Source: Sphagnum magellanicum (taxonomy: Eukaryota > Streptophyta > Sphagnopsida > Sphagnales > Sphagnaceae). From it: a stretch of 64,000 bases of DNA. Location of the stretch: assembly GCA_021904315.1 (NCBI GenBank), contig CM038908.1:30742001-30806000 (forward strand). The letters run 5' to 3'. The position numbers and the translations under genes are program-made. Positions 44,754-58,100 of the stretch are shown in pieces. The notes under the pieces were generated by a model, which searched no databases, was not told the origin of the DNA, and worked only from the letters and a program-made list of their open reading frames with translations. Numbering within the stretch: the first letter of the stretch is position 1; each line of letters starts with the position of its first letter.

Positions 44754-48391
<3,638 letters not shown>

Positions 48392-48920
48392 AAAACCCCG
48401 CCTTCTTTTCCGACTCTCGTTCTCACAACAGATTACCGCTACTAAACCAAAACCCTTCCAAAAAAACGAACCTCTCAACTGAAAACCTGGAACACAGAAC
48501 AAAAACTCCAACAAACACACACAAGAAAACACCAAAAATGAAGAGCAAAACAGCAGGACAAAAAAAGCAGAGTGTACGAGAGCGCTCGCTCACTCACGTT
48601 AGAGAAGAGATCGACGAAATGCGGAGAAAACACTCGACGAAAAGCTCGGCAAGCGCACAGTCTACCACCAAACACAGACGCACACGCAGAGGCACACACA
48701 AAAAACACACAAGCTTAAGTGCTAATCAAACCACCATTAATTGTATTAGCAATGCACTAAACAAGGAGCAAACTTAATTAGCACCTAATCTCTCTGCACA
48801 TGAAATCTGCAGAAAATCAATTAATGTGTCTTTGTGGTGCTTTGTTGTTGCTCGTCTTTAGCAGCTTGGCTGAAAGAAAATTTTCATTGTAATTTTGGGT
48901 ACTTATATGATGGCATAGGA

Positions 48921-52822: not shown

Positions 52823-52888
52823 TTGTTGCGGTGGGGAGCGCAGTAAGGGGGGGAAAGTGCTTGTGTTTTGAGCCATTTTGTTCAGAGG

Positions 52889-53776
52889 ATGGTGACTCAG
52901 GGGAATGAAACATTTGTACAGCTTCACGGTGTGCAGCAATCTGGTTTCTCCTCTGAGAGAAGCAACACGATTTGTGTGAAAGGAACATGGTATCCCATGC
53001 ATTTTGTCCTCGTCATCACTGATGGTATCGATGCTTGGAGGACAGATGCAACAGAGAAAACTGTGATATTGCGATCAAGAAGCTTGCGACTCACAGAAAC
53101 CGAGTATGTGGATAAGGTGCAATTGCACCTTGGCCAACAGCACTCGAGCTCTGTGTATTCGTTGTGTCGCATTGACTCAGAGAAGGTGCGATTTACGTGC
53201 ACTCCCATGGACAAGGATTACTCTCTTGGTTTCACCTTAGATCTGGTCCTGAATAAGGTGCCAGGCATGAGCATCACCTTTGATATGTTGCAATTTGTAA
53301 TGCGGGCGCACACGGAGCTTCTGGAGCAGATGGAAAGTAAGACGCGAATGTTTGAACGCACAAAAGCTGCTGCAGAAAAAAGTTTCAGAGAGCTCCAGAA
53401 GGAGAAAAATGAGGTGGAATTAAAGTTTCTGCAGCTGAAGACACGGGCGGATGATGGTGCTTTGAGTGCCTTGTCACCAGCTGGGAAGAGGAAGGCTGAC
53501 CATGTGGTGGAGAAAGGATCTGTGAGGCAAAAGCCACTACGGACTTTGCCTACCAGCCCACCACCCTCGCCTCCTTCAGCCTCAAAGACGCCACTGTATT
53601 CCAATGGCAACAAAGAGCTTTCAAAATCTAGGAGTAAAGCAAGACGAGGAGTGGTGACACCAACGAAGATAAGTGTGAAGCACTCCATGTCTGAACCCAA
53701 GTATAGCGGCTGGGGAGCACAAGCAAAATTCTTTCTTGGAGTTGCTGGTCCACGGGAGGAGCAGCAGACTGCTGAA

Positions 53777-53808
<32 letters not shown>

Positions 53809-55147
53809 TACTGACAGAGCAAGAGAGAAAGAGATGCTCATGGCTGCTGCCAATGTAGATGGATGCTTGGAGAGATCTCAATTTCCTGTTGGAGACTTGG
53901 CGTTTACTGAAAGGCACTATCGCTTGGTGACAGCACAAAAGGGAAGAAGAACAACTGGCTCGATGAAGAAAGGCAGGTCGAATGTTAACAAAGGTTCTGG
54001 CAGTAAGAGAAAGAAAGGAGGTCAAAGATCTGTTGCAAAGAAAGGTGCAGTAATCTGTGCAGACCAGATAGAAGATCAAGTGGCAAAGGGCATCAAACTG
54101 TTGGAGCCATTTACAAACTCTGGCTTGTGTGCTGGTCGGGATGGAGAAGAGAGGAGTCAGCTAACACTCCCCACCAAGAAAAGGGGCAGACCATTTGGGT
54201 CCGGAAAGGGCTGCAAACCATCACCTGAGAAGAAAGCAACAAGTTTGCAGTTGAACAGCCAAACATACAGTGACGAAGTTTCACACTGGCCCGGTGTGTC
54301 TCTCCAGGGAACTGATGCACAACAGTTTGGGGTTCTGGACAATCTAGGTGTTGCTCCAGTTCCTGATGAACAGAAAGAGTTCAATGTCATCAGTGCAGAC
54401 TTCCATGATTTTGATGGCGATCGCACAGAGAATGCAATGGCCTTGAATCAATTCTGGGCTCTCTATGATGACAAAGATGGGATGCCCCGATTCTATGGCC
54501 GCATTTCAAAGTTGATTCACACACCTTTTGAGGTCAGTGTTGAATGGCTGGAACCTTATCGTCCAGTAGTTCAACCCGATGGCCTCATTAAGTTAGCAGA
54601 TCTCTCTGCATCATGTGGGGAGTTTAAGCTTGGAATTGAGTGTGCACAGACATTGGCTGCTTTCTCCCACAGGGTGGAGATAGATATAATAGAGGGATCA
54701 AAATCCATTTTTCGATTATATCCCAAAAAGGGTGAGGTCTGGGCACTTTACAGAAGTTGGTGGCAGCACAAGCCTGTCCAATCTGATGCTGGGGAGGAAG
54801 ACAACGTGAAGTTTGAGTATGATTTAATGCAAGTATTGAGTGACTATTCAAAAGAAAAGGGTGTGAAAGTAGCACCACTTTATAAAATTCCAGGCTTTAC
54901 AGCAGTCTTTCAGTCAATTCAAGAAAGCAGTATGATTCCAGCTAGGGATGTATTGTCCAGATTCTCTCATCGAATCTTTACATATCAGATGAGAGGAGAT
55001 GAGAGGCCTGGAGTGCCCGAGGACTCCTTGGAGCTTGACCCTGCGGCTACTCCTGTGGAATTCCTAAAAGAGTCTCCAAATGGGTATGGTGTTGATCATC
55101 CACCTCCTGCAATGGAGTCACTCCAGACAGTTTCTGAGTCTGGTTGA
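52889..55147 (+). CDS. XRCC4-like head fused to AT-hook and DUF3444 domain
   Basis: A single intronless frame of 752 aa. An in-frame TAA at 52844-52846 precedes the ATG at 52889, so this is the first Met. Residues ~28-190 resemble plant XRCC4, the DNA ligase IV partner in non-homologous end joining: VKGTW (30-34), VITDGIDAW (42-50), EYVDKVQLHLGQQ (72-84), SVYS (88-91), then a helix MLQFVMRAHTELLEQMESKT, FERTKAAAEK (155-164). The coiled coil ends early, about residue 187, where XRCC4 would go on to bind ligase IV. Residues ~195-495 are disordered and charged: Pro-rich (TSPPPSPP), Glu-11 (296-306), Lys/Arg clusters (likely nuclear signal), and an AT-hook KKRGRPFGSGKG (430-441). Residues ~498-725 are a DUF3444 domain: FHDFDGDR, WALYDDKDGMPRFYGRI, VEWLEP, SCGEFKLG, FSHRVE, YPKKGEVWALYRSW, VLSDYSKEKGVKV, FSHRI and ELDPAATPVEF. 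DUF3444 usually follows a DnaJ domain in plants. Likely nuclear; actual role unknown. Confidence 0.88.
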
Positions 55148-58100
55148 ATGGCTGGGGGTTTTTAGCTCATCTTGAATCCTCAGGAGCCTTGATGCTACTT
55201 TCTTACCCACCTTGACAGATGGTAGTAACAGCTGGCCTAAGATGCTCATGTTTGGTGCCTTGAGAGAGTTCAATCTGCTGATGGTTTATGGGTTGAGCCA
55301 AGTATTTCAGCCTTCTATGCTGGAAGAGTGTGTGCAGAGAAAGTGGGTTAAGAATGCTGGGAAAAACATTGGTTGTGACAGTGCCCATCCTTGGAAAGCA
55401 GGAGTGGCACTCAAGTCTCAGTGCAGACTTGGCAAGAAACCTGTGTGGCATATTGCTGGATTGTTGGGAGGCCCATTGAGGTGGACATAGTCTTTCATAG
55501 AGTAGGTGTTTCAGTTTGCTGGATTAATATTGTATGAAGTTTTGAGACATATTACTCTTAAAATTCTATGCGTATTCTTGGATTCTCTGATTTTGTTGGT
55601 TGTGTCCACTGGGAAGAGCTGTGTGACCACATCCTCTAAAATATTAAAATGATGACATCTATTGGGCAGGCAGGTACTATGTTCATAATCTTGCAAGATG
55701 TACTGCTTTATGTGTCATCGATCTTCATTTGTAAAGTTTAGGGTTTGCTCAGGGGCAGCTCAGCAGATTGGTAGCTTTCTTACCTCTCACTAGATCAAGT
55801 GGTTCAGAAGCATTGCTGTGTCTGGAATCTCATGACACAGTTATAAGGATTATGAGAGGAATTTTATGACAAGCCTTTAGAAGCATTTGTTGTGGTGGAA
55901 CTCTCTGTGATGGTATTCACTGTGCACAGTATTTGCACCTTAAGTTTGTGTTGTCTTAGGTGGCTTTCCCCAAATTTCTTTCTTCCTGCTGTTGGAGGTT
56001 TGAATTTGTCAAAGGAAAACAGATGTGAGAGCATGATGTCTAGCTATGTTCCTTGCACAGGAACTGTCCTCGTTAGAGGGCCTCGCATCTAAGCTTGTAT
56101 TTCAATCTTTCTGAGCTTTATTGTGTTGATGTATCCTGTTGAAGTGTTCTTTGAACCATTCGTTTTGTAGTGCTGGAGTGGGGAGATGTGGTTGTCCCAC
56201 TTCTTAACAACACATGTTTTTAGTGGTGATGAGGTAGAAACTGTGGAAGAGATGGGGTGGCCAATGAGAGTGCTGACAATTGAGCTTGAAGATGGCCAAC
56301 AGTGAGGAAGGACAACAGCTGAGAAGCTTTCAATCCCCGTACTATGTCCATGTCAAGAACATAATTGTGATCTCTTTGAATATGTTTCTTTAGAAAGGCT
56401 TTCAATCCCTGTACTTGTTCACATCAATGGGTCTTCCAACAATACCATTCTTGGGGTGGATCATGGCTTGAATTTAGTCTTAATTTCACCAGAAAGAAAA
56501 TCAATTCATGAGTTGTTTTGCTACTTTTGAAAGCTTGCTTATTTGCGATTGTGTCCATTGTTGTGGAGATTTTTTAAATCATGAACTCGTGTTTGCAATT
56601 GGTGACTTGTTACTTCTTTTCCTGCTAAAGAAACTACATAAGTAAACTTTCAATTTGAAACTCGATGCCACAACAAGGACTAAGGATCTCTTTCTGATGA
56701 GGGGGCCTATGACTAGTAATAAAAAAACTTATGACGCACACAAAAAATGCTGGATGTGGGTGAGGCCACGTGGCTTGTTTGTATTTGAGATCTCAAACCA
56801 GATCCTGAGATCTGGACTCTTGCCCTGTTTGTTTCTTGTGTTGCAAAATCAATGAATTCTTGCTGGATGTGTAATTTTGCAGCCTTGCATATCTATATGA
56901 CAACAATGTGCTTACATATGTTGAAGCTGTCAACAAAGAAAAGGCCAAGAGCAATATGGAATGCTATCTATAAGTGACAATGTGTGCCTTTGTTGTCTCT
57001 TTTGCAACTGCTTGACCTCAACTCCGTTGATTATAGTTTTGCAAGAATGATGATTTGATTGGGGATTTGCAGATTTTCTAGGGTTTTCTTTTTTCCATGT
57101 TATCATGGTTTCAACATTCTTCCAATTTTCTCTTGTAAGGTTTTCAGGACTAGTTAGGAGGGATAGACTCACAATGAAGATGGACAAGTTGGTTGGTAAC
57201 TTTCACTCGATGGAAGTTAGGAAGTTACTCTGATAGGTTGGAGAGTACCTTTCAGATTGTGTAAGTTATTATTCTTGCAACATCATTGCATGTTAACGAA
57301 CATGATTTTTTCAGTCCAATGAGGGATCAAAATATACAAAGGATAAAATGCGATGATGCTTTACGATCATGCAAGAATTTGAAGCAAAATTTAGGGTGAA
57401 AGACAATGGCAAGAAATGCATGACTATTTGAAGTCTTTGTGTGGGGATGTGCACATCACACGAGGAGAATATGATGACAACATCTATTTTCGAAATTGTT
57501 GCTGCCTACTAGTCCTTGTGTATCTACCATTTAACAACAAGGAAAGCAGATTGTAAAGTGGCCTAATATGAAGTTGAAGGGTTTTAACCAAGCAAAATGT
57601 AATACATATGTTGATTTCAGGGTTCATTATTTGGAACTTAATAGCATCTTCATTTTGAGGGGGATTGTAATCATGTTTTTTACATGAAGTTCTAATAGGC
57701 ATGTTAATTTTTTCCATGAGAAAACAAATGGAAAACACTTGTTCATATTGTTAGGAGTGTATGCACCATCATCAAAGGGGAGAACCTGCGCCTTAAAAGT
57801 TGTTAAAAAGGGTAATTTAAGCACATAATTTTTTAATTGCCCAAGCAAGAAAACAACAACCACAGCTAGACTCTTGAATTTTTGGTGCTTCCTATGATTA
57901 ATGTCCTTGAAAGCAATGTTGACCTCTGATTTGGTGTGCATGCAAAAACTAACCCAAGCTTTTAGAAAACATTAACATGTTGCAGCATGAAGACACATTG
58001 ATGAATTGGTTATTAGTGTGCAAATGCTAGTGCACTCCTAACATTTGGTTGAGTATTTTATGGTCCATTGAACTATCTTTGTTATGCCTTATTCTTGGAA

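Follow-up and report, generated by a model that had tools for sequence, protein, structure and literature searches.

The window that we analyzed is a stretch of 64,000 nucleotides from Sphagnum magellanicum (C2:30742001-30806000), and the searches were made in a genome of 438,994,042 bases on 31 contigs. On the forward strand, positions 52889-55147 hold a single open frame of 752 codons, an intronless gene whose 752 amino acid product consists of an XRCC4 head, a helix, a linker and a DUF3444 domain. The ATG at 52889 is matched by the starts of the copies on contigs C1 (MVTQRNET) and C5 (MVTQGNET), and the DNA similarity between the window gene and the C1 copy spans 52877-55152, from the start codon to the stop codon, in two overlapping pieces. 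The remaining five frames of the gene contain 22-46 stops each. An artefact of the gene model or the assembly, in which two adjacent genes are read as one, was already disfavoured and is very improbable, since the chance of 752 codons without a stop in one frame is about 3e-20 at the local base composition and the same order is repeated at four loci on other contigs, three of which are also stop-free. An earlier note on this DNA had reported the frame, and its coordinates and length are right.

The N-terminal head domain occupies amino acids 1-128 (52889-53272, forward strand) and is recognized by Pfam, with a PF06632 (XRCC4) match at amino acids 28-93 (E 3.6e-10, 40.2 bits against a cut-off of 26.2), as well as by a profile search of the PDB. 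It is followed by a probable coiled-coil helix of 57 residues (amino acids 129-185; 53273-53443, forward strand), which contains no proline and after which the motif scan finds no XRCC4 ligase IV-binding motif. A long polar linker (amino acids 186-494; 53444-54370, forward strand), with 17% K+R, 13% D+E and an acidic run, separates the helix from the DUF3444 domain (PF11926; amino acids 495-705; 54371-55003, forward strand), which matches positions 2-211 of the 211 profile positions (E 4.1e-55, 187.1 bits against a cut-off of 26.1). Both Pfam matches are above their cut-offs, in agreement with the claim of the earlier note that an XRCC4-like N-terminus and a clear C-terminal DUF3444 are joined in one intronless gene, and the motifs that it had listed (VKGTW, ITDGIDAW, LGQQHSSSVYS and KTRMFERTKAAAEK) are present in the translation. 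With E values up to 10 allowed, Pfam found one further family in the window protein, below its cut-off (E 0.11), and no J domain.

The linker also contains an AT-hook-like KKRGRP (amino acids 430-435; 54176-54193, forward strand), which was found by motif scan. Among the five full-length fusions its core (KKRGRP or RGRP) is shared by the C2 and C1 copies and is absent from the C5, C6 and C18 copies. The AT-hook that had been noticed in the linker is therefore present but not conserved; we rejected it as a core feature, and with it AT-rich DNA binding as a core property of the protein.

The XRCC4 head and the helix behind it

The window protein alone gives weak matches in the PDB, the best being XRCC4-myosin chimeras (E 0.0053, or 0.0088 when 300 residues are used). 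A profile built from the five fused heads matches 17 distinct XRCC4 sequences, chimeras included, with E values from 1.1e-8 to 9e-5; of its 25 matches the remaining 8 comprise four bZIP sequences and four chains of unrelated proteins with E 0.12 or worse. Chains of XLF, PAXX or SAS6 are absent from the PDB matches of this profile up to E 10. PF06632 is above its cut-off in all five full-length fusions, and in the C18 copy an XLF match (E 0.025, below cut-off) stands behind the XRCC4 match (E 1.5e-10), as would be expected from the shared XRCC4 superfamily. Judged by these sequence matches, the head is a member of the XRCC4 branch of the XRCC4 superfamily.

The canonical XRCC4 of this moss (class a) is encoded separately at C5:8.932 Mb by five predicted exons with GT-AG borders, and its 345 amino acid product matches PF06632 with E 1.8e-11. 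On the same contig a fusion gene lies at 8.957 Mb, about 22 kb from the canonical gene and in the opposite orientation.

The helix of the window protein shows a heptad pattern, with a fraction of core residues at the a and d positions of 0.69 as compared with 0.47 in shuffled sequences (P 0.005). All five fusions have such a pattern in their helices of 50-58 residues (shuffle P 0.002-0.026), in a test that is weak, since the helix of the canonical moss XRCC4 gives P 0.40. The ligase IV binding site is described as residues 173-195 of human XRCC4 (PMC8224183). The canonical moss XRCC4 aligns with human XRCC4 over 19-199 and places VLNSKKGMLRKLRDQL opposite human VLNEKKTKIRSLHNKL, whereas native human XRCC4 chains (1ik9, 3ii6 and 7lsy) align with the profile of the fusions over about 30-151 only. 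The input sequences of this profile and of the alignment of fused and canonical heads had been trimmed at residues 184-196, and the trimming creates part of the gap that this alignment shows at the ligase motif. The evidence on the ligase stretch accordingly comes from a shuffle test on full-length proteins and from Pfam scans of the full frames. Along the full length of the five fusions, a 30-residue canonical stretch around the ligase motif does not outscore its shuffles (P 0.45-0.87), and the same holds within their residues 150-260 (P 0.16-0.80); an LN.KK-like motif is absent from all five. The Pfam family XRCC4_CC is matched by none of the five fusions (the C18 copy being scanned up to its predicted intron) and weakly by the canonical moss protein (E 0.0011, below cut-off). 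A full-length MAFFT alignment scatters the canonical stretch over gaps without placing it and is uninformative alone. Based on these scans the fusions appear to carry no trace of a ligase IV-binding stretch, and a diverged contact is possible. The lack of such a stretch in the fusions, while the moss XRCC4 keeps one, speaks against a canonical XRCC4 role for them, and is compatible with either a repair factor or a competitor of XRCC4.

A family of fusion loci and its age

A genome search with the head (E up to 10) found eight matches, and one with DUF3444 found 16. At five loci the head and DUF3444 are found together in one gene of the kind seen in the window (class b): C2 (the window), C1:29.56, C5:8.96, C6:14.20 and C18:4.41 Mb. 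Four of them are single frames of 752, 827, 839 and 735 amino acids, and the fifth, on C18, has a predicted GT-AG intron of 198 bases in its linker and encodes 624 amino acids once this is taken out. In a genome search with the PF06632 profile (E up to 1), 11 matches were obtained, of which these five and one at C1:10.776 Mb are above the cut-off, with those at C13:19.217, C3:15.057, C18:3.954, C14:8.577 and C5:8.932 Mb below it. The PF11926 search (E up to 0.01) gave 20 matches: five from the fusions, one each from two genes that have no match to XRCC4, six from exons of three genes of a second class (class c), and seven from five loci with in-frame stops. Both of the genes that lack a match to XRCC4, at C1:19.32 and C1:0.99 Mb, have a zinc ribbon. 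An XRCC4 head thus lies upstream in 8 of the 10 loci with an intact-looking DUF3444. The earlier note had described the architecture in this one gene; the architecture stands, and the gene belongs to a family with eight loci or more that fall into two classes of gene structure.

The class c genes are rich in introns, and their models are predictions drawn by eye. At two of the loci, C1:10.776-10.770 and C13:19.217-19.222 Mb, a pair of DUF3444 exons lies about 4.5 kb downstream of an XRCC4 exon on the same strand and covers most of the domain, about positions 25-211 of the 211 in the profile. One stop is listed for the first DUF3444 exon match on C1, and reading of the frame places it at the edge of the match. 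The third locus was found through its DUF3444 at C2:13.81 Mb, and its XRCC4 exons were recognized from their similarity to the C1 exons (73%, 68% and 84% identity). When the C13 locus is compared with the C1 exons, the second exon matches (51%) and the first was not located. Pfam gave nothing above cut-off on four long linker frames of class c and one tail stretch of class d. All three class c loci have linker runs such as DDAIVVSDSD, DDVIVVSDSD and REDIIILSDSE, in which the IVVSDSD and IIILSDSE parts presumably resemble SUMO-interaction motifs, and the C1 copy (C1:10.77 Mb) has an AT-hook-like KKRGRP too. The genes of a further group (class d; C3:15.057, C18:3.953 and C14:8.578 Mb) contain introns and encode an XRCC4-like head ahead of a very long tail made of SRRNS-type repeats; the PF11926 search found no DUF3444 match near these loci. 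Two of the five loci with in-frame stops in DUF3444, C3:14.338 and C13:14.819 Mb, look like decayed fusions of the C18 type, and head remnants are still found at C3. The existence of two apparently decayed copies means that no single fusion copy need be essential.

Selection was estimated by the Nei-Gojobori method for pairs of the C1, C2 and C5 copies, which have whole-gene dS values of 0.68-0.84; in pairs with the C6 and C18 copies dS is mostly saturated and the ratios were left out. The dN/dS ratio is 0.16-0.23 in the head, 0.10-0.18 in the helix, 0.13-0.21 in DUF3444 and 0.50-0.56 in the linker. The head and DUF3444 are both under purifying selection and the linker is less so, and the low ratios in the head and in DUF3444 indicate that the two domains are kept together.

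The tree of DUF3444 domains, which cannot be rooted, groups the class b fusions with support of 99/97 and separates C1, C2 and C5 from C6 and C18 with 100/99. The tree of heads, which joins long branches, groups them with 89/90, leaves the canonical XRCC4 outside and makes the same separation with 98/99. Within C1, C2 and C5 the order differs, C1 pairing with C5 in the DUF3444 tree (49/16) and C2 with C5 in the head tree (93/94). It was reported that Sphagnum chromosomes 1, 2, 5 and 8 form one ancestral set and that there were two whole-genome duplications, with dS peaks of 0.406 and 0.643 and dates of 102-122 and 189-247 million years (PMC9946827). The C1, C2 and C5 copies fit this chromosome set, if contig numbers are taken as chromosome numbers, and their dS is nearest to the older peak, although the dS methods differ. 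A whole-genome-duplication origin of these copies is thus based on the chromosome sets of that source together with dS and, if it is right, the join is more than 100 million years old in this lineage. Local synteny was examined with one neighbour, a short-chain dehydrogenase exon at 47942-48535, for which the only other match is at C1:0.455 Mb, away from the C1 fusion at 29.56 Mb, so that this neighbour gives no local synteny. The exon is part of a set on the reverse strand (47293-48535) that perhaps encodes a 3-oxoacyl-ACP reductase; one of the frames matches PF00106 with E 3.5e-6.

Possible functions of the fused protein

The two domains are each known and the head is of the XRCC4 branch; what is notable is the copy number, the retention of the copies and the absent ligase site. 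No paper that names XRCC4 and DUF3444 together was found in the open-licence PMC literature, in agreement with the earlier note, which knew of no such protein, and no mention of PF06632 was found there; PF11926 is mentioned in one paper, and three papers name XRCC4 along with Sphagnum. The domain order may already be on record in protein databases. The recurrence of the join within one genome points to a second protein of XRCC4 type in this plant, a ligase-free one.

The function that we favour, and to which we give about an even chance as a whole, is that of a dimer of XRCC4 type without the ligase, in which DUF3444 serves as a module for chromatin or a partner and which may thereby tune end joining. 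The single frame with both domains, the family, the selection on both halves, the lack of a detectable ligase motif and the separate canonical XRCC4 were all observed, and from this basis we infer the dimer, its nuclear site, the chromatin module and the link to repair, as a helper or as a brake of end joining. The head and the short coiled coil would form a homodimer, as their sequences suggest, in which the part of the helix that binds ligase IV is missing, and the head would supply the usual head-to-head contacts. The long polar linker would then carry two DUF3444 domains per dimer, each of which may act, by analogy with its place in DNMT3, as a nuclear module that binds chromatin or a partner. 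Such a dimer would be a bivalent scaffold tethered to chromatin, tuning end joining instead of carrying the ligase.

Another option is that the protein has nothing to do with repair and that the XRCC4 fold is a mere dimer handle on a DUF3444 protein of chromatin or chaperone type, where it takes the position that other N-terminal domains have in other DUF3444 proteins. This fits the conservation among distant copies, in which DUF3444 is the more conserved part (55% identity between C2 and C6 as compared with 33% for the head), and the fact that DUF3444 has other partners, namely DNMT3 (PMC6453930) and the zinc ribbon of the two genes on C1. Yet a mere handle would not be expected to be constrained about as strongly as DUF3444, as the head is in the C1, C2 and C5 copies, nor to keep the KGTW, DG and AW positions that it has in common with the moss XRCC4, and we regard this option as rather unlikely.

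The fused protein could also be a brake on canonical end joining, if its head pairs or stacks with canonical XRCC4 to give ligase-free complexes, with less end joining and more homologous recombination as the outcome. The retained head without a ligase motif and the canonical XRCC4 in the same genome are in line with such a brake, as is the description of homologous recombination as the main mechanism of break repair in Physcomitrella (PMC8803787). However, the fused and canonical heads are only 28% identical, which makes mixed dimers doubtful, and we consider the brake unlikely.

The tuning dimer can be taken further, to a moss branch of its own within the XRCC4 superfamily, whose ligase-free dimers carry DUF3444 as a chromatin reader and whose genes form an intronless and an intron-rich class, the join having perhaps arisen twice independently. 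Such dimers might position end joining in certain chromatin or hold it back there, and might help to explain the preference of mosses for homologous recombination; in this full form the proposal is speculative and quite improbable. A plant branch with an XRCC4 head, no ligase site, a DUF3444 domain and several retained copies would represent a scaffold of a new type, and would open a new way to approach the function of DUF3444. In Physcomitrella, where homologous recombination dominates, genes are routinely removed, and a role in repair choice would be directly testable there if an orthologue exists. In that moss, XRCC4 (Pp3c1_38430) was reported to rise 149-fold after bleomycin (PMC4990234), and a second XRCC4-like gene, PP3c14_21160, is given as not detected as differentially expressed in PMC8803787.

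Comparison with known systems

XRCC4, XLF and PAXX are the known end-joining scaffolds of the XRCC4 superfamily, and canonical XRCC4 stabilizes DNA ligase IV in this pathway. With canonical XRCC4 (human, PDB 1ik9 and 3ii6, and the moss gene at C5:8.93 Mb) the fusions share the PF06632 head and the helix that follows it. The positions KGTW, DG and AW of the moss XRCC4 are kept in the fused heads, in the alignment cut at residues 184-196, and its L.EQ...KTR.FER run recurs in the C2 and C1 fusions. The canonical protein differs in carrying the ligase IV-binding stretch that was not found in the fusions and in its gene, which has four predicted introns and encodes 345 amino acids, while the fusions add a linker of 158-378 residues and DUF3444. 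XLF and PAXX belong to the same superfamily as the fusions, yet chains of neither are hit by the five-head profile, which picks out XRCC4; to our knowledge neither occurs in combination with DUF3444. Proteins of this superfamily are described as dimerizing through the helical tail (PMC8224183).

From the DUF3444 side the closest setting is plant DNMT3. DUF3444 is given as the C-terminal domain of both Physcomitrella DNMT3 proteins, in an order said to be conserved in DNMT3s of non-flowering streptophytes (PMC6453930). As DNA methyltransferases these proteins imply a nuclear setting, and they end in DUF3444 like the fusion, with a methyltransferase domain where the fusion has its XRCC4 head. 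The occurrence of DUF3444 in DNMT3 suggests a link of the domain to chromatin. Among the matches to the methyltransferase family PF00145 that were listed (124; 123 of 387 candidates were scored), none lies within 20 kb of a DUF3444 match, and no DNMT3 gene with DUF3444 was found among them. Some PF00145 matches are in open frames of 1000-2379 amino acids, as if retroelements carried a methyltransferase. The earlier note had plant DUF3444 usually behind a J domain; the domain is not confined to such proteins, since DNMT3 carries it as well (PMC6453930).

The zinc-ribbon genes (L006 and L007) differ from the fusion in having PF23551 ahead of DUF3444 and no XRCC4 match. They nevertheless resemble it in their build, with DUF3444 behind a long linker and, in L006, a single frame. 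J-domain proteins, in which DUF3444 also occurs, likewise carry it behind a long linker, as the fusion does.
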